64,000 nucleotides of DNA from Acidimicrobiales bacterium. GTDB lineage: Bacteria; Actinomycetota; Acidimicrobiia; Acidimicrobiales; Aldehydirespiratoraceae. Of this stretch, positions 47,030 to 58,996 are shown piece after piece (the stretch's first letter is position 1; every line of letters starts with the position of its first letter). The DNA is taken from positions 26,537-90,536 of the forward strand of contig JAKMFW010000032.1 of assembly GCA_022425325.1 (NCBI GenBank), in the 5' to 3' direction. The notes under the pieces were generated by a model. It was given only the letters and a program-made list of their open reading frames with translations. It was not told the origin of the DNA and did not search any database. Made by a program: the position numbers and the translations under genes.

Positions 47030-49075
47030 TCAGCGGCCCCGCACAAGGCTTCGCTTGTGGTCGACAAAGTCCATCAGGACATAGTCCCCGAGGTTCTCAT
47101 TCGTCGTGAAAAACGCTCTCCCGCCGTTCATCCTGGAGATCTGCTCTACGAAATTCTGGAGATAATGGGTGACATCGAGAACGAACGTGTTGATCCGAAT
47201 GTCCTCCCGAGTGCACTTCGCAACCTCGGCGAGGGTGAGATCGACCGTCTCCTGCGACGGCGGGTAATTGAAGTACGGCTGACCTGACGGTGTGATGTGA
47301 GCCGTCGGTTCGCCGTCGGTGATCATGATGATCTGCTTCGTGCCCGCCTGTTTGGCCAGCATCTTGCGGGCGATCTGGAACGAGTGCTGCATATTGGTGC
47401 CGTACACGTAATCCCAGCTGAGCTCGGGCAGCGTGGCGGCGTTGAACTCCCGAGCGACCTCGCTGAACGACACCATCCCGAGGAAATCACGCGGGTACTG
47501 GCTCGAGATCAGCGAATGCAGCGCCATGGTGACCTTCTTGGCCGGCAGGAAGTTGTCGCGCATCGCCATCGACATCGAGACGTCGAGCATCAGCACCGTC
47601 GACGAGCGCACGAGCTGTTCCGTGCGCTCAATCTCGAAATCGTCGGGGTGCAGCCGAACCGGAGTGCCGCCACCCGTGCGGGCGACGGCGTTACGGAGCG
47701 TCTTCTCGATGTGGAGGTTGAAGCGGTCGCCGTACTCGTAGGGCTTGGTGTCGAAATCGCGCTCGTGGCCGGCGCCGGTCTTCTCGAGCGCGTGTTTGCC
47801 GAGCGTGTCGGCCGACATGCGCTTGAAGAGCTCCTGCAGGGCACCGTTCCCGATTTTGCGGATCGCACGCGGCGTGAGCTCGTACGTTCCTTCCTTGTTC
47901 TCGATGAGACCCTGCTCCTCAAGCAGCTTCGCCAGCTCAGCCATGCGCTCGAGCGACTCCGCCGACTCGTCGCCGAGCAGATCGCGAGCCCGATCGATGT
48001 CGACCTCGGCGAGTGCACCGGGGTTGGTGGCGCCTCGCAGGAGGTTGTCGAGCTGATCGATATCGCCGAGTTCGCCCATCATGTCCATCGCCTCGGGCAT
48101 GTCGAGCGGGTCGAAGCCGTCGAAGTCGTACGACTGACCCCAGCCCATCTGCGGGAACTGGTCACGAAGATTGTCCGCCAGCTGTTGCATCTGGAACTGG
48201 AGGTCCATGTCCTCCATGAGTTGGTTGCTGAGGTCCTGGAGCTGCTGTCGCTGCTCGGGCGTCATGGAGTTGAGCATCTGCTGGGCCTGTGCCATCCGCT
48301 GGGCCATGACCTCGAGCAGCTCGTCGAGGGTCTGCGGATTCTCCGGGAAGAAATCCCCGTAGCGCTCCATGAATCCGTCGAAGTCGGGCTCCTCACCGTT
48401 GGCCCGTTGCTCGAGCATCCGGTTGAGCTCCGCCATCATGTCCTTCAGGCGCTGCATGTCCTCGGGTGACATGTCGTTGATGCCTTCGGCGATCTGATCG
48501 AGCTGCTGTTGCATCAGCTGCTCACGAAGCTGGTCCATCAGCTGCTCGAACTGCTCGCGAGCCTCCTGGCTCTCGAAGTCGTAGTTCTGCAGGCCCTTCA
48601 CCTGGCCGGCGAGGTCGGGCGGGAGCATGTCGAGCTCCATGTTCTTCATCGCCGCCGTGTCGGATTTGAGCTGCTGCTGACGCTCATCGACGCCATCGCC
48701 CTCGGCCTCGCTCGGCTGACCCAGCTGATCGAGCGCCACCCGTTCCGCCTCGACGACCTCGCGCAGCGAATCGGCGATGTCGTCGTAGACGCCGCCGAGA
48801 TTGTGGTTCTCGAGGATCTCGCGACGGCGTTCCCGGAGGCGCTGCATCATGTCGCGGATGCCCTCCATGTCGCGACCGTCGCGATCGGTCAGGCCGTTCT
48901 GCATCATCTGCCGCAGCGCCGAGTTGACGTCGCCGTGATAGAGCAACTCGTCCGCCATCTCACCAAAGAGGTGGTCGGCGTCGAGATCGAACCCGGTCTG
49001 GCTGCCATCCCAGCGCGAGTAGGTGAAGTGCGCAGGCTCCCGCCGACGGCGGTGACGACGACGAGAGAAGACCAT
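47030..49075 (-). CDS. VWA-domain protein (MIDAS intact)
   Basis: C-terminal VWA: VLMLDVSMSMAMRDN...IIMITDGEPTAH; long Gln/Met-rich helical N-terminal region. Confidence 0.85.
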   Translation of the reverse strand: MVFSRRRHRRRREPAHFTYSRWDGSQTGFDLDADHLFGEMADELLYHGDVNSALRQMMQNGLTDRDGRDMEGIRDMMQRLRERRREILENHNLGGVYDDIADSLREVVEAERVALDQLGQPSEAEGDGVDERQQQLKSDTAAMKNMELDMLPPDLAGQVKGLQNYDFESQEAREQFEQLMDQLREQLMQQQLDQIAEGINDMSPEDMQRLKDMMAELNRMLEQRANGEEPDFDGFMERYGDFFPENPQTLDELLEVMAQRMAQAQQMLNSMTPEQRQQLQDLSNQLMEDMDLQFQMQQLADNLRDQFPQMGWGQSYDFDGFDPLDMPEAMDMMGELGDIDQLDNLLRGATNPGALAEVDIDRARDLLGDESAESLERMAELAKLLEEQGLIENKEGTYELTPRAIRKIGNGALQELFKRMSADTLGKHALEKTGAGHERDFDTKPYEYGDRFNLHIEKTLRNAVARTGGGTPVRLHPDDFEIERTEQLVRSSTVLMLDVSMSMAMRDNFLPAKKVTMALHSLISSQYPRDFLGMVSFSEVAREFNAATLPELSWDYVYGTNMQHSFQIARKMLAKQAGTKQIIMITDGEPTAHITPSGQPYFNYPPSQETVDLTLAEVAKCTREDIRINTFVLDVTHYLQNFVEQISRMNGGRAFFTTNENLGDYVLMDFVDHKRSLVRGR

Positions 49076-49167
49076 GAGCGGAATGTAGTGCGGAGCCCAG
49101 ACCTCGTACAGGTGGGCGCTCCCCCGCATTCCATCTCACGGTGCGTCGCTGTTAACGTTCGCTAACC

Positions 49168-49773
49168 ATGCGTGCGACCGATGCCACCGCCACCGATGCG
49201 CCGACGCGCCGTCCGGCCAATCGGCGCGCGCTGATCCTGGAAGCCGCAGTCGAGCTTTTCCGCCATCACGGCTACCCGGCCACGAGCGTCGACGACATCG
49301 GCAAGGCCGTTGACGTCTCCGGCCCGGCCATCTATCGCCACTTCTCCTCCAAGGAGGATCTCCTCGTCGAGGCGATCACCCTCGCCGCCGACGAGGTTCA
49401 CGCAGTCAACCGCTCCGCCCGGGCCGACACCGACGATCCCCGCGCACTGCTCACGGGCTACATCCGCGCCTACACCGACGTCGCGCTCGAGCGTTCGGCC
49501 CTCATCGCCGTGTGGACCTCCGAGCGTCGCCACCTCAGCCGCGAGCGCCGCTCCCCCATGGGACGCCGCCTTCGAAGCTGGACGCACGAGTGGACCGACG
49601 CCCTGCAGGCCGCTCGTCCCGAACTCGACGACGACGACGCCTTCCTGCTCGTCACCGCAGCCATCGGGTTGATCACGAGCGTGGCCACCGGCCCCGACCG
49701 GCGCGATGATCCCCACCTGGCCGAGAACATCATCACGATGGCACTCGCCACCCTCGACGCTCCCGTCCGCTAG
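49168..49773 (+). CDS. TetR family regulator
   Basis: RALILEAAVELFRHHGYPATSVDDIGKAVDVSGPAIYRHFSSKEDLLVEA. Confidence 0.9.
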   Translation: MRATDATATDAPTRRPANRRALILEAAVELFRHHGYPATSVDDIGKAVDVSGPAIYRHFSSKEDLLVEAITLAADEVHAVNRSARADTDDPRALLTGYIRAYTDVALERSALIAVWTSERRHLSRERRSPMGRRLRSWTHEWTDALQAARPELDDDDAFLLVTAAIGLITSVATGPDRRDDPHLAENIITMALATLDAPVR

Positions 49774-49789: not shown

Positions 49790-50629
49790 GTGCCCATCAA
49801 CCCCGACGCCGTCGGCACCGTCGGTCCCGAAAACGAGATCTCCTGGACCAGCAAGGACTCGCTGCTCTACGCGCTAGGAGTCGGTGCAGGGCAGACCGAT
49901 CCGACCGGGTTCGAACTCGAGTTCACCACGGAGAACACCTCGGCAACCGCCCAGCAGGCGTTCCCCACGCAGGTCGTCGTCCTCGGCGGCGGTGGCGGTG
50001 TCGACTTCGGCGATTTCAACCTCGCCGCTCTGCTCCACGGCGAGCAGCACATCACCCTTCACCAGACGCTCCCCGCCGAAGGCACGGCAATCGGTCAGGG
50101 ACGCGTCGCCGCAATCCACGACAAGGGCAAGGCGGCACTCGTCGTACTCGAAACCGACGTTCGCGACACCGACGGCAACCCCTGGTGGACCACCCGCTCC
50201 GGCCTCTTCATCTCCGGCGAAGGGGGCTGGGGTGGCGACCGTGGGCCGTCGGCCACCTGGACGCTCCCCGATCGCGCCGCCGACATCGTGCACGGCTTCG
50301 ACACCCGCACCGACCAGGCGCTGCTCTATCGCCTCAACGGCGACCGTAACCCCCTGCACTCAGACCCGTTGTTCTCCTCCCTCGCCGGCTTCGAGACCCC
50401 GATCCTGCACGGCCTCTGCACCTACGGAGTGAGCGGTCGGGCCCTGCTCCACGCGCTCTGCGACGGCGACCCCGACGGGTTCGGCTCGATGGGCGGCCGC
50501 TTCAAGTCGCCGGTCATCCCCGGCGAACGCCTCGACGTCCACATCTGGAACGAAGGCGATCAGGTCCTCTTCCAGACCCGTGTCGGCGACCGCGTGGTCT
50601 TCGACAGCGGCGTCTTCGCCCACCGCTGA
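49790..50629 (+). CDS. MaoC-like / hydratase-2-type double-hotdog protein
   Basis: LLYRLNGDRNPLHSDPLFSSLAGFETPILHGLCTYGVSGRALL hydratase-2 motif; GTG start. Confidence 0.88.
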   Translation: MPINPDAVGTVGPENEISWTSKDSLLYALGVGAGQTDPTGFELEFTTENTSATAQQAFPTQVVVLGGGGGVDFGDFNLAALLHGEQHITLHQTLPAEGTAIGQGRVAAIHDKGKAALVVLETDVRDTDGNPWWTTRSGLFISGEGGWGGDRGPSATWTLPDRAADIVHGFDTRTDQALLYRLNGDRNPLHSDPLFSSLAGFETPILHGLCTYGVSGRALLHALCDGDPDGFGSMGGRFKSPVIPGERLDVHIWNEGDQVLFQTRVGDRVVFDSGVFAHR

Positions 50630-50638
50630 TCCGTCGAT

Positions 50639-51827
50639 GTTCCTGAAGGGCGTCACCGCCTCAGCGGTCTCAGCCGAGGGCGTCGCACCGGCCGCCGACT
50701 GGTCGACCTGGGAGCGCGACGGTCGAGCCCCGCGCTCGAGCGATGGCGCCGGCCTGCTCACCGACTTTCGCGACGATCTGCAGCAGTTCGTCGCGCTCGG
50801 CTGCAACGCCTGGCGGGTCACGATCGAGTGGGCCCGAATCGAACCGGAACCCGGCAAGATCGACCACGACGCGCTCGACATCTACCGGGACGTACTGGCC
50901 TTCGCCCGCGAGGTCGGGCTCCAGAACTGGATCACGCTCCAGTCGACCACGCTGCCCGGCTGGTACCTCGACGACGAGGGCGGCCATCGAGACGAGGACG
51001 CCCGGGGTCGGTACTGGCTGCGTCACGTCGACCGGGTGGCCGAGGCGTTCGACGAATTCGCCACCGGTTTCGTGCCGATCGACGACCCGATCGGGTGGGC
51101 CGTGCGCAGCTACGGGCTCGGATCCCGGCCACCCGGGCGCAAGGATCGAGTCGTGCTGCGCGACGCCGTCGAAGGGGCCGTGCACGCAACCCACGAGGCG
51201 ATCCGGCTCCTGTCGTCGGGACGCCAACAGCTGATGACCGCCTGGCGAGCCGATCCGATCCACGCGCTCGCCGATGACGACGGACGGGTGTCGCTCGAGG
51301 CGACCCAGGCGGCCCGCGGCTGGGAAAACCTCTTCTGGTCGTGGCTGCGGCTTCACGCCGACGGCGTGCTCGAACTCGACGGCCGAGCGCCGGTCGACGT
51401 GCCGCTGTTCGTCAACGCAGTCGATCACGTCGGGATCGTCCACGACCATCCGATCGGCATCGGTCCCGACGGTGGCTTCGCCCCGTGGCCGCGGGGCGCT
51501 CGAGTCTCAGGAAGTGGCCTTGCCCCCGAACCCGCCGAGCTCGCCGAGGCCCTCCACCGCGTCAGCGAGGCGCTCCCCGACCACTCGCTCGTCGTTGCAG
51601 GCCATGGGGTCAACACCGACGACGAGGCCTGGCGAGAACACCTGCTGGCTCGCACGCTCGACCATGTCCGCGGGGCCCATCACGACATCGGCCTCGCCGG
51701 ATATTTCCACGACAGCGGGATCGACGGTTACGACTGGAAGCTCGGCTTTGCCCGGCCACGCGGCCTGCTCAGCCGAGGACGGGCACGCAAGGCGGCCGCC
51801 GACACCTTCGCCGACTGGTCGGTGTGA
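50639..51827 (+). CDS. GH1 (beta-glucosidase)-like protein lacking the canonical catalytic Glu residues
   Basis: FLKGVTASAVSAEG, WRVTIEWARIEPEPGKIDHDALDIYRDVL, LPGWYLDDEGG, FVPIDDPIGWAVRSYGLGSRPPG (NEP changed to DDP), LVVAGHGVNTDDEAW (TENG changed to AGHG). Confidence 0.75.
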
Positions 51828-51839
51828 ACCCGTTCGGGT

Positions 51840-53252
51840 TCAGCTCCGACTGCGGAACTGGGCGCGACCGCCCACGGCGTCCTTGTTGAGACGCTTGGCC
51901 AGGTGCAGCCCCTCGAGCACCATCTCGCACGCACTGGCGACCATCGCAGGCGAACTCGCAGCCTCCTCCTCGGAGATGAGGGCGTCGACCGGCGCCTTCA
52001 ACGCAGAAACCCGATCGATGAGGGCGACATAGGCGTCGTCGGTGACGTCCTCACCCGTGTCGACGACGAGTTCGCCGTCAAACGCGTCGACGACCGCACG
52101 ATGGGTGTCGGGCGGAACACGGTCCTTGAACACCTGCAGGATCCCGGCCTTCACCAGACCGTCGAGGATCTCCGCATCGCGTCCCTCGTCGAGCGTCTCG
52201 ATCTCGACCTTGCCACTCGTCGACGCAGGCAGGGCCTCGAGGTCGACGATGCGCGGAACGGCAGCGCTGGCACCGGAGCGCAGGGCACGTCGAACCGAGT
52301 TGGCGATCATGATCTCGAAGTTCGAGATCGAGAGACGGACCGACACGCCGGACCGCTGGGAGATGTGCTGGCTACGACGAGCGGCATGGGTGACCGAAGC
52401 GACGATCTCGGTCATGAACGACGGCACAGTGAGATCGAAGCCCTCGCTGACGGAGATGTCGGCCTCCTGCTCGACGATGGCGACCTCGGTCTCGACATCG
52501 AGTGGGTAGTGCGTGCGGATCTGGCTGCCGAAGCGATCCTTCAGCGGGGTGATGAGCCGACCGCGGTTGGTGTAATCCTCGGGGTTGGCCGAGGCGACCA
52601 GGATGACGTCGAGCGGCAGCCGGACCTTGTGACCACGGATCTGCACATCGCGTTCCTCGAGCACGTTGAGCAAACCGACCTGGATGCGCTCGGAGAGATC
52701 GGGCAGCTCGTTCATCGCGAAGATGCCGCGGTTGGTCCGCGGGACGAGGCCGTAGTGCAGGGTGAGTTCGTCGGACAGATAGCGCCCCTCAGCGACCTTG
52801 ATCGGGTCGACCTCGCCGATGAGGTCAGCGATCGAGGTGTCGGGTGTCGCCAGCTTCTCGCCGAATCGGTCGTCGCGGTGGACCCATGCGATCGGCGTGT
52901 CGTCGCCGTGCTCGGCGATCAGTTCGCGTGCGTGGCGAGAGATGGGGTTGTACGGGTCGTCGTTGATCTCGGAACCGGCGACGATCGGCATCCACTCGTC
53001 GAGGAGACCGGTGAGACCGCGGATCATGCGGGTCTTCGCCTGCCCTCGCTCCCCCAGGAAGATGATGTCGTGGCCGGCGAGCAGCGCATTTTCGAGCTGC
53101 GGGGTGACGGTGCTCTCGTAGCCGAGCACCTCGGGGAACAACGGCTCATCGGCCTGGATTTTGGCGATGGCGTTGCGCCGCAGCTCCTGGCGCAGCGACA
53201 CCGACTCCCAACCGCTCGCCTTCAGGGCTCCGAGTGTCTCAGGGTTCGACAT
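51840..53252 (-). CDS. MoxR/Mg-chelatase-like AAA+ ATPase
   Basis: Walker A LGERGQAKT; GIFAMNELPDLSERIQVGLLNVLEERDVQIRGHKVRLPLDVILVASANPEDYTNRGRLITPLKDRFG. Confidence 0.9.
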   Translation of the reverse strand: MSNPETLGALKASGWESVSLRQELRRNAIAKIQADEPLFPEVLGYESTVTPQLENALLAGHDIIFLGERGQAKTRMIRGLTGLLDEWMPIVAGSEINDDPYNPISRHARELIAEHGDDTPIAWVHRDDRFGEKLATPDTSIADLIGEVDPIKVAEGRYLSDELTLHYGLVPRTNRGIFAMNELPDLSERIQVGLLNVLEERDVQIRGHKVRLPLDVILVASANPEDYTNRGRLITPLKDRFGSQIRTHYPLDVETEVAIVEQEADISVSEGFDLTVPSFMTEIVASVTHAARRSQHISQRSGVSVRLSISNFEIMIANSVRRALRSGASAAVPRIVDLEALPASTSGKVEIETLDEGRDAEILDGLVKAGILQVFKDRVPPDTHRAVVDAFDGELVVDTGEDVTDDAYVALIDRVSALKAPVDALISEEEAASSPAMVASACEMVLEGLHLAKRLNKDAVGGRAQFRSRS

Positions 53253-53312
53253 GGCCGGACCATACACGGATGCCAATCCATGACCCAGACGGGCGACCGG
53301 TAGCGTTCAGGG

Positions 53313-55421
53313 ATGGACCTGTCCGGCGCGTGGCGTGCCGCCCCCGCTCGTGAAGAGCTCCGCCGGACCTTCCACGAACCGGCACTCGACGACCGCGACT
53401 GGGCCGAGGTCACCGTGCCCGGCCACTGGGCCCACACGCCCGACCTCGCCGACGAATGCGCAGTCCTCCACCGCCATCGCTTCTCGATGCCGTCCGTGGC
53501 GGAGGATCGGCGCCGCTGGATCACCCTGCACGGGATCGCCCAGCAGGGCGATGTCTGGCTGAACGGTGCCTACGTGGGCGATACCGACGGCTACTTCGTC
53601 CCGCACCAGTTCGAGATCACGCACCTGATGCGCGACACCGACGAGCACTGTCTCGCCGTCGATGTCACGGTGCCGTCATTCGGCGATCCCGACGAACGCA
53701 GCAATCTGATGGGTGCCATCCTTGATCCGCAGCTGTCGGGAGCGGCCGGCCACAACCCGGGAGGCATCTGGCGCGAGGCCGCGATCCACGAGACCGGCAC
53801 GAGCGCGATCCAGCACTTCCGTGTCGTGTGTGTCGACGCCGACCGGGCTCGGGCCCGTCTCGCCATGCGCTGCGTCTTCGACCACCCCGACGGCGGGCCG
53901 GTCCTGCTCCGAACACACGTCGCCGGGATCGACCACGAACTCCACCATCCGGCGGCGGTCGGCGAGAACCGGGTCGAGTGGACGATCGACGTGCCCGAGC
54001 CTGAGCTGTGGTGGCCGCACTCGCTCGGCGAGCAGCCCCTGCACGAACTCTCGTGTGAGCTCATCGTCGACGGCCAGCTGCATGATCATCGGTCCTACCG
54101 CACGGCCTTCCGCACGGTCCGGCTCCGCGACTGGACACTCCACGTGAACGGGGTTCGTCTCTTCACCAAGGGCATCGTGATGTTGCCCACTACCCCACGC
54201 CCCGGCGATGCGACACCTCACCAGGTCGCCGCCGACGTGAGGGCGGCCCGAGACGCCGGACTTGACCTGATCCGCTTTGTCGCCCACGTCGCCCACCCCG
54301 AGGCCTACCGGACCGCCGACGAACTCGGGATGCTGGTGTGGCAGGAGATGCCATTGCGCGGGGTGATGGCTCGAGGCGTACGAGGTCAGGCGGTCCGACA
54401 AGCCCGCGAGATGGTCGATCTTCTCGGCCATCACCCGTCGGTGGCCGTGTGGTGTGTGCATGACGAGCCCTTCCGGCGACAACAGGCGCCCACGTCGACA
54501 CCGCCGATCGTCGGCCAGCAGCGCCCCTCGTGGAACCGGGCGGTGCTCGACACCTCCGTACGGCGCGTCCTCCAACGCACCGACGGTTCCCGCCCGATCG
54601 TCAATCACACCGCCGTCCCACCGCACCTTCCCCTGCTCGACGGGACGACGAGCCACCTGTGGTTCGGTTGGCACGACGGCACAGCCGATGATCTCGCCGC
54701 TGCGATCGGACGCCTTCCCCGCATGGGACGGTTCGTGACGGCGTTCGGGGCTGCAAGCGTCGACCCGCAACTCCCTGAACTCCAGGAAGGGCGTTGGCCG
54801 GCACTCGACTGGAATCCGATCGCGGCAGCCGTCGGAGCTCGCCGTCGATCGCTCCATCACCTCGCCCCACCCGAGCGGGCCGGTGACGGACCGGCCTGGG
54901 CCGAGACCACCCGCCAGGCCCAGGCCGACGTGCTGCGCACCACCATCGAGACACTGCGGAAGGTCAAGTACCGGCCGACCGGCGGCTTCTGCGCCTTCTA
55001 TCTGGCCGACCCCGGACCCGCCGGCGGCTTCGGTGTCCTCGACAGTGATCGCCGGGCCAAGCCCGCCCTCCAGGCGCTTACCGATGCGTGCCGTCCGGTC
55101 ATCGTGGTCGGCGAGCCACTCCCCGCCTCGATCGGGGTCGGCGAGGTCTACGAGATCGCCATCCATGTCGTGTCGGATCTGCACGAGCCGTTGCGAGACG
55201 GGGTCGTTTCGGCGACGATCCACCACGCCGACGGCACCACCGACATCCACCGCTGGGGCGGCGAGATCGAGGCCGACTCGGTGGTCCGTATCGCCCTGCT
55301 CTCGGTGCCCGCGTTGCGGCCCGGAGCGCTCACGGTCGAACTTGCGCTCAACGCAGTCGTCGACGACGTCGAAAACGGCGAGATCACCGCTCACAGCAGC
55401 GTGAAGACAACTGTCAGCTGA
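53313..55421 (+). CDS. GH2 (beta-mannosidase/galactosidase)-like protein lacking the apparent nucleophile Glu
   Basis: Jelly-roll ADDWAEVTVPGHW-like N-terminus, GYFVPHQFEITHLM, HNPGGIWREAAIH; barrel DELGMLVWQEMPL, HHPSVAVWCVHDEPF (acid/base Glu kept), GRFVTAFGAASVDPQ (SEFG changed to TAFG). Confidence 0.75.
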   Translation: MDLSGAWRAAPAREELRRTFHEPALDDRDWAEVTVPGHWAHTPDLADECAVLHRHRFSMPSVAEDRRRWITLHGIAQQGDVWLNGAYVGDTDGYFVPHQFEITHLMRDTDEHCLAVDVTVPSFGDPDERSNLMGAILDPQLSGAAGHNPGGIWREAAIHETGTSAIQHFRVVCVDADRARARLAMRCVFDHPDGGPVLLRTHVAGIDHELHHPAAVGENRVEWTIDVPEPELWWPHSLGEQPLHELSCELIVDGQLHDHRSYRTAFRTVRLRDWTLHVNGVRLFTKGIVMLPTTPRPGDATPHQVAADVRAARDAGLDLIRFVAHVAHPEAYRTADELGMLVWQEMPLRGVMARGVRGQAVRQAREMVDLLGHHPSVAVWCVHDEPFRRQQAPTSTPPIVGQQRPSWNRAVLDTSVRRVLQRTDGSRPIVNHTAVPPHLPLLDGTTSHLWFGWHDGTADDLAAAIGRLPRMGRFVTAFGAASVDPQLPELQEGRWPALDWNPIAAAVGARRRSLHHLAPPERAGDGPAWAETTRQAQADVLRTTIETLRKVKYRPTGGFCAFYLADPGPAGGFGVLDSDRRAKPALQALTDACRPVIVVGEPLPASIGVGEVYEIAIHVVSDLHEPLRDGVVSATIHHADGTTDIHRWGGEIEADSVVRIALLSVPALRPGALTVELALNAVVDDVENGEITAHSSVKTTVS

Positions 55422-55492: not shown

Positions 55493-56274
55493 ATGGCACA
55501 GACCATGCCCGGCACCGACCACTCGGTGCCGGTACTCCGCCGCCGGGCACCGCAGCTTCCCTGGCCGCTCAACCTCTACCAGACCGCCGTCGGCAAGAAG
55601 TACGTGATGGCCATCACCGGCGTCGGCCTCCTGGGCTTCGTCGTGGTGCACATGATCGGCAACCTCCACATCTACGAGGGCCCGACACAAGTCCACGAGT
55701 ACGCCGAGGCACTTCGCGGTCTCGGCGGTCATCTCGTGCCCCGGACCTTCCTGCTGTGGGTGCTCCGCATCGGCCTGATCGGCATGTTCGCTGCGCACAT
55801 CCACGCTGCGTTCTCGCTCAGCCGCATGAACACGAAGGCCAACAAGGCCTACGCCGGTAGCCGCGACTATCTCGCCGTGAACTTCGCCAGCCGCACCATG
55901 CGCTGGACCGGCCCGATCATCCTGCTCTACCTGCTCTTCCACCTCGCCGATCTCACCTGGGGCTGGTTCAGCGACGAGTGGGTGCGAGGCGACGTCTACG
56001 CCAACGTCTACAACTCAATGAGCGCACTCCCGATCGCCGCCATCTACATCGTCGCCAACGTGGCGCTGGCGACGCACATCTACCACGGCGCCTGGTCGAT
56101 GTTCCAGACCCTCGGCATCAACAACCCCCGCTACAACAACGCCCGCCGGCGCTTCGCTCAAGGCCTCGCCGCCGTGATCCTGCTCGGCAACCTCAGCTTC
56201 CCGCTGGCCGTCCAGGCCGAACTGATTGATCTCGAAGGCCACACACCCGGCCAGTACAACCTCGAATACGGAGA

Positions 56275-56278
<4 letters not shown>
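55493..56278 (+). CDS. sdhC: Succinate dehydrogenase/fumarate reductase cytochrome b subunit (single-gene membrane anchor)
   Basis: Five TM-like segments with His in [34 protein letters not shown]; upstream of sdhA. Confidence 0.9.
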
Positions 56279-58203
<1,925 letters not shown>

Positions 58204-58222
58204 GTCTGGAAGATCCCGTCCG

Positions 58223-58996
58223 ATGAGCAAGAACCTCAATCTCAAGCTGAAGATCTGGCGCCAGGCCGGTCCGCACGCCCAGGGCTCCTTCCTGGAGGTC
58301 GATGCCCACGACATTCCCGAGGACGCCTCGTTCCTCGAGATGCTCGATGTGGTCAACGAGCGCCTGATCGCCGACGACGTCGAGCCGGTCACGTTTGGTC
58401 ACGACTGTCGTGAAGGCATCTGCGGCACCTGCGGCGTGATGATCAACGGGCAGGCCCACGGCCCCGAGAAGGCCACGGCAACGTGCCAGCTGCACATGCG
58501 CAAGTTCAACGACGGTGACGAGATCGTGATCGAACCGTGGCAGGCCACGTCGTTCCCGATCCTCAAGGACCTCATGGTCGACCGCCGCGCCTTCGACCGC
58601 ATCGTCGAGGCCGGCGGTTACATCTCCGCCCCAACCGGCACGGCGCCCGACGCCAATGAGATTCCGATCCCGAAGGAGGTGGCCGACACCTCGATGGACG
58701 CCGCCGCCTGCATCGGCTGTGGCGCCTGTGTTGCGGCATGCCCCAATTCGGCAGGTCAGCTGTTCACGTCGGCCAAGCTCCACCACCTCAACACGCTGCC
58801 CCAGGGCCAGCCGGAGCGGTGGAAGCGCACCGAGGCCATGGTCGAGACCATGGAGGACTTCTTCGGTTCCTGCACCAACCACGGCGAGTGCGCCGAGGCG
58901 TGCCCGAAGGAGATCTCGCTCGACTTCATCGCCTTCATGAACCGTGACTACGTGAAGTCGAAGGTCAAGAACCGCAGCCTGGTCAGCAAGCACTGA
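58223..58996 (+). CDS. sdhB: Succinate dehydrogenase/fumarate reductase iron-sulfur subunit
   Basis: DCREGICGTCGVMINGQAHGPEKATATCQLHMR; CIGCGACVAACPNSAGQLF. Confidence 0.95.
   Translation: MSKNLNLKLKIWRQAGPHAQGSFLEVDAHDIPEDASFLEMLDVVNERLIADDVEPVTFGHDCREGICGTCGVMINGQAHGPEKATATCQLHMRKFNDGDEIVIEPWQATSFPILKDLMVDRRAFDRIVEAGGYISAPTGTAPDANEIPIPKEVADTSMDAAACIGCGACVAACPNSAGQLFTSAKLHHLNTLPQGQPERWKRTEAMVETMEDFFGSCTNHGECAEACPKEISLDFIAFMNRDYVKSKVKNRSLVSKH

Follow-up and report, generated by a model that had tools for sequence, protein, structure and literature searches.

In the window (the whole stretch of DNA that we analyzed, 64,000 nucleotides long, from a marine actinobacterium), a gene for a GH1-fold protein follows those for a TetR-family regulator and a MaoC-like protein on the forward strand, with spacings of 16 bp (TetR to MaoC) and 7 bp (MaoC to GH1) if the MaoC gene starts at 49790 (Table 1). 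These three genes are flanked by two on the opposite strand, for a VWA-domain protein upstream and a MoxR-type ATPase downstream, after which the forward strand continues with a gene for a GH2-fold protein and with sdhC, sdhA, and an sdhB-like gene, the last three being succinate dehydrogenase / fumarate reductase genes (55493..58996). Since GH1 and GH2 are opposite in strand to VWA and MoxR, they are neighbors of this pair, not one operon with it. The arrangement VWA(-)-GH1(+)-MoxR(-) recurs across the class, and within the taxonomic order GH2 and sdhC/A usually come next; some members of the core clade also have MaoC beside GH1. Several relatives have further ORFs, read by eye, between GH1 and MoxR, and in two cases (L051 and L058) such an ORF resembles ribose 5-phosphate isomerase by the same kind of inspection. 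In a phylum-wide sample, no relatives of the GH1 protein at E <= 1e-28 were found outside the class, and those relatives that have names are for the most part MAGs of Acidimicrobiales or Acidimicrobiaceae.

Table 1. Genes of the locus and catalytic or -1 subsite positions, in coordinates of the window; GH1 residues are paired with those of SGR_2426
Feature	Position	Strand	Basis or remark
VWA-domain protein, presumed MoxR partner (DxSxS motif DVSMS)	47030..49129	-	VWA_2 just below cut-off; cobaltochelatase-type match; synteny
TetR-family regulator, first gene of putative operon	49168..49773	+	domain search
MaoC / hydratase-2-like protein	49790..50629	+	domain search; GTG start picked by eye
GH1-fold pseudoglycosidase gene	50637..51827	+	396 aa; Pfam GH1, AlphaFold2, Foldseek
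Ser12 (SGR_2426 Q29)
Ser103 (SGR_2426 H123)
Asp149 (SGR_2426 N167)
Acid/base codon, Asp150 (NEP to DDP; SGR_2426 E168)	51084..51086	+	Asp in 36/36 core-clade rows, 33/33 non-redundant
Tyr-position codon of -1 subsite, Asp270 (SGR_2426 Y267)	51444..51446	+	Asp in 27/33 core rows; Tyr in every catalytic-type row
Nucleophile codon, Gly322 (TENG / AECG to AGHG; SGR_2426 E318)	51600..51602	+	G/A/S in all core-clade rows except L020
Trp-position codon of -1 subsite, Asp359 (FHWT to FHDS; SGR_2426 W356)	51711..51713	+	Asp in 30/33 core rows; Trp in every catalytic-type row
Asp366 (SGR_2426 E363)			paper prints Gln363, aligned chain has Glu (PMC12369401)
Trp367 (SGR_2426 W364)			sole kept -1 contact; 31/33 non-redundant rows
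MoxR-type AAA+ ATPase (Walker A GERGQAKT)	51840..53276	-	Mg_chelatase / AAA_5; BchI/ChlI-like
GH2-fold protein, 702 aa	53313..55421	+	nucleophile lost (Ala477, TAFGA); acid/base Glu385 kept (HDEP)
Codon of Ala477, GH2 nucleophile Glu position	54741..54743	+	ortholog alignment
sdhC	55493-56278	+	TIGR02046 and TIGR01811/PRK07573 cover C and A, above cut-off
sdhA	56275-58203	+	TIGR02046 and TIGR01811/PRK07573 cover C and A, above cut-off
sdhB-like	58223-58996	+	translation only

The GH1 gene runs in one open frame from the ATG at 50637 to the stop at 51827; an earlier note, made from the letters of this DNA, gave the same end and put the start at 50639, the last base of this ATG codon. The GH1 scaffold proposed there is borne out by homology far above chance. 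In the comparison with the family HMM that the note had called for, the protein passes the cut-off of Pfam PF00232 (54.6 bits against 22.6, E = 8e-15), and it matches the beta-glucosidase equivalog TIGR03356 (E = 8.5e-22) with a score of 77.6 bits, below the curated cut-off of 478.5, which the catalytic-type relative L049 also fails to reach (172.3 bits). A phmmer search against the PDB matched 1vff (E = 4e-27). The AlphaFold2 model (pLDDT 77.9, pTM 0.84), built from 13 sequences and with low pLDDT in several active-site loops, has a (beta/alpha)8 barrel of GH1 type, and the best Foldseek matches listed are all GH1 (E of about 1e-23, TMq 0.70-0.80). A signal peptide is not evident from the sequence, and the barrel is apparently cytosolic. 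PF00232 matches this gene alone in its genome, with no second GH1 in an assembly that is 95% complete.

Retaining hydrolysis by GH1 enzymes requires both an acid/base and a nucleophile Glu, and the window protein has neither. The four altered motifs that had been described are all present, in one frame: the acid/base motif NEP reads DDP (within FVPIDDPIGWAVRSYGLGSRPPG, residues 145-167), the nucleophile motif reads AGHG (within LVVAGHGVNTDDEAW, residues 318-332), the WSLLDNFEW loop reads HDSGIDGYDW (residues 358-367), and the HW pair is replaced in QSTTLP (residues 102-107). The last of these descriptions is correct for the window and has a narrow reach, the change from HW to ST being limited to the closest relatives, with the His kept in ~40% of the wider clade. 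We mapped individual residues by phmmer alignment to SGR_2426, for which the -1 subsite contacts and an E318G mutant have been published (PMC12369401). The acid/base Glu aligns with Asp150 and the nucleophile Glu with Gly322, and the contacts Gln, His, Asn, Tyr, Trp, Glu, and Trp are S, S, D, D, D, D, and W in the window protein, Asn167, Glu168, and Glu363 of SGR_2426 all becoming Asp. The protein is thus GH1 by fold and sequence and fails in the residues that define the enzyme. No catalytic Glu reappears in the aligned motifs, and with both absent a non-hydrolytic protein is the simplest interpretation; loss of activity, as the earlier note had it, is probable on the evidence of these residues. 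Sequencing error is excluded by near-identical independent assemblies (95-97% identity; L031, L002/L032, L035, and L037) carrying the same residues, and so is a frameshift, of which a re-reading of the codons in the earlier note had found no sign.

The gene is maintained rather than decaying, as had also been claimed. Pairwise dN/dS across orthologs, a comparison suggested in the earlier note, lies in the purifying range, at 0.076-0.13 for the five closest (Nei-Gojobori), and within the range of the neighbors at the same locus (MoxR 0.020-0.081, MaoC 0.083-0.20, GH2 0.098-0.18); the frame is open in all listed core-clade members, at 40-97% identity, and the change of the acid/base to Asp is fixed among the non-redundant relatives. 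Loss of the catalytic motifs together with purifying selection characterizes a maintained pseudoenzyme. Across the 36 core-clade rows, besides the invariant Asp150, the residues Arg157 (36/36), Arg164 (35/36), Arg375 (33/36), Asp359 (33/36), and Asp270 (30/36) are conserved, and all six differ from the residues of the catalytic type. Among the 33 non-redundant rows, there is drift at the positions of Gln, His, and Glu363, and G, A, or S stands at the nucleophile position, apart from one Glu. This pattern suggests that sugar recognition was relaxed while a few new residues were fixed. Taken jointly, the ten -1 positions show conservation no greater than that of random sites (p = 0.11), and strong selection on the pocket as a whole is unsupported. 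The row with the Glu, L020 (family f54), is a core-clade GH1 that combines an AECG nucleophile motif with Asp at the acid/base.

Beyond what the earlier note covered, we observed that the slot can hold GH1 orthologs whose catalytic motifs are complete, and that the adjoining GH2 also lacks its nucleophile. GH1 proteins with NEP and the nucleophile Glu occupy the slot in families f3, f6, f24, and f53 of this order (L049, L051, L052, L054, L055, L079, and L080) and in most of the sampled genomes of other orders (L175, L176, L178-L182, L185-L188, and L190-L194), some of these other-order loci being too short to display both flanking genes. They are ~31-41% identical to the window protein (e.g., L049, L052, and L178) and share common ancestry with it. 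With the catalytic columns excluded, 35 rows of dead forms, including that of the window, group in one clade (98 SH-aLRT). Three further same-slot GH1 proteins without full catalytic motifs, from other orders of the class, fall outside it, L168 with L177, and L184, which makes three changes in total. Other dead clades of the slot carry different pockets. One loss shared by every dead form of the class was not firmly rejected (p-AU 0.094). Family f53 has both dead and catalytic-type GH1 in the slot, and recent repeated loss there was tested by forcing the two into one clade, a grouping that was rejected (p-AU 0.0094; p 0.16 in the same topology test for f3). For f53, the rejected grouping makes older paralogs, or a replacement at the slot, the likelier source of the mixture. 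Outside the locus we also found a separate group of catalytic-type GH1 proteins (NETNYY; L059, L069, L071-L073, L076, and L174), which co-occurs with the dead form in some genomes.

The GH2 neighbor passes the Pfam cut-offs for PF22666 (35.5 against 27) and PF00703 (28.1 against 23) and stays under that of the TIM-barrel domain PF02836 (17.9 against 21); its AlphaFold model is weak (pLDDT 64.5). Orthologs of catalytic type have HNEP and (S/T)EFGAQ where the window clade has HDEP and TAFGA, and other clades have HDAP/AAFG, HVDP/SQFG, HLRP/SDMG, or HEEP/GGFG. The PADLOC profile CARF_Beta-galactosidase_LolE_TM also matches the GH2 protein (E = 5.6e-46), a match that probably reflects the shared GH2 domain and not defence. 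In the 54 genomes with both genes, GH1 and GH2 are both dead in 40 and both of catalytic type in 7, a dead GH1 stands beside a catalytic-type GH2 in 7, and a catalytic-type GH1 stands beside a dead GH2 in none (raw Fisher p = 2e-5, relatedness ignored). On the tree this joint loss has two or three origins, and an independent-pairs test, tried as statistical proof, yields two pairs, with GH2 differing in neither. The link between the losses is a pattern with too few independent origins for an established association. In genus g2 of the same family (L108-L112, five sister genomes), the dead GH2 is present and GH1 has no match; MoxR adjoins the dead GH2 at four of these five loci, and L111 has no MoxR match.

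The GH1 gene of the window very probably encodes a maintained GH1-fold protein that is not a retaining glycosidase. The retention of GH1 and GH2 without their key residues suggests that each serves a purpose other than cutting sugars. We propose that the ancestor of the GH1 protein was a catalytic-type enzyme, of the kind that related genomes still have in this slot, that retaining glycoside hydrolysis was dropped in the lineage of the window, and that the protein may have taken on a new job as adaptor, scaffold, or ligand sensor for the flanking MoxR-VWA chaperone pair, in a locus that runs into succinate dehydrogenase genes and has a GH2-fold neighbor also without its nucleophile. The analysis shows the fold, the replacement of both catalytic Glu and of most sugar contacts, the purifying selection, the fixed slot, and the loss in GH2 in this lineage; the absence of hydrolysis and the MoxR-VWA link are inferred. 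The function is read from the place of the gene, between VWA and MoxR and close to the genes for succinate dehydrogenase. The E. coli pair RavA-ViaA, also of MoxR-VWA type, associates with fumarate reductase and acts on it (PMC10585395), and RavA builds a cage with the metabolic enzyme LdcI as its structural partner (PMC6987120); a GH-fold protein as partner of MoxR-VWA would be a comparable arrangement. A non-hydrolytic partner role, the function that we favor, is a tentative but quite possible reading, and the whole explanation, a maintained pseudoglycosidase that partners MoxR-VWA, comes just short of probable. Against this explanation, GH1 is absent from the five g2 genomes that keep the dead GH2, and so is dispensable there, and Asp150 could still serve as an acid. 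We consider unlikely a bolder version, in which GH1 and GH2, of unrelated families and flanking the MoxR gene, both turned into non-hydrolytic parts of a MoxR-VWA system serving succinate dehydrogenase, with the GH1 pocket rebuilt into a site of conserved Asp and Arg residues that serves a new ligand or a new reaction.

The rebuilding of the pocket can also be taken by itself, with Asp150, Asp270, and Asp359 together with Arg157, Arg164, and Arg375 forming a new ligand, metal, or catalytic site in an enzyme or sensor for a non-glucoside. The conservation of these six residues in the core clade (30-36 of 36 rows), in states unlike those of the catalytic type, speaks for such a site, as does the alignment to SGR_2426, which puts the three Asp at positions lining the -1 subsite in solved GH1 structures. 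For Asp359, we take the lining role of the Trp position from general knowledge of GH1. We regard this reading as rather unlikely: the -1 positions as a set do not exceed random ones in conservation, those of Gln, His, and Glu363 are free to vary, 7 of the 33 non-redundant rows lack Asp270 or Asp359, and the differing pockets of the other same-slot dead clades fit a scaffold role better than one chemistry. Improbable as well is a lectin-like barrel that binds a glycoside without cutting it; the kept GH1 fold, the Trp364 equivalent W367, and the GH1-fold precedent of Klotho (PMC10628560) agree with it, but glucose at the -1 subsite is held by Gln, His, Asn, Tyr, and a platform Trp, and these are replaced here. 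A glycosidase still working by an altered mechanism, with an Asp acid, substrate assistance, or a migrated nucleophile, could draw on the invariant, acidic Asp150 and on GH97, a family shown to have both inverting and retaining members (PMC2670981), yet G, A, and S replace one another at the nucleophile position and the sugar-binding set drifts as well, and we consider this reading just as improbable. A pseudogene in early decay, for which one could cite the lost catalytic residues and the absence of GH1 in the sister genus, is ruled out for practical purposes by dN/dS of 0.08-0.13 and by the open frames of the core-clade orthologs.

Compared with known GH1 beta-glucosidases (1vff, BGL167 4r27, and SGR_2426 8kap/9u98), the window protein has the fold and overall sequence in common (PDB E-values of 1e-15 to 4e-27, TMq 0.70-0.78) and differs in that both catalytic Glu and most -1 contacts are replaced; the catalytic-type GH1 proteins of the slot keep NEP and AE(C/H)G, whereas the window clade does not. 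By description, there is also a likeness to the KL domains of alpha/beta-Klotho, which share the GH1 fold, have their catalytic Glu altered, and play a non-hydrolytic part (PMC10628560). Klotho proteins are animal membrane co-receptors with tandem KL domains, whereas the window gene encodes a single bacterial domain of 396 aa; if the reading as a non-hydrolytic partner is right, the window protein would act in the manner of KL domains, yet it is not a Klotho. The locus resembles RavA-ViaA in its MoxR ATPase and VWA protein and in the tie to fumarate reductase / succinate dehydrogenase (PMC10585395). It differs from it in that the known enzyme partner of RavA, LdcI, is not glycosidase-fold, and in that MoxR and VWA are non-adjacent in the window, flanking TetR-MaoC-GH1; the likeness is one of related domains, matched by general profiles, and of a conserved locus. 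Rv0958/Rv0959 may be relatives of the MoxR/VWA pair.

In the literature searched, with most subscription journals outside its coverage, we found no paper that describes a family of bacterial GH1 pseudoglycosidases. The clade described here, bacterial GH1 pseudoglycosidases in a MoxR-VWA locus beside a nucleophile-less GH2, is a variant of pseudoglycosidases already known. A GH1 domain match alone would lead to the label beta-glucosidase, and such proteins are probably misannotated across the order. The fixed slot, with catalytic-type orthologs as controls, makes the change from enzyme to non-enzyme directly testable, and if the MoxR-VWA link is true, these proteins would be a new kind of partner for a poorly understood class of chaperones.
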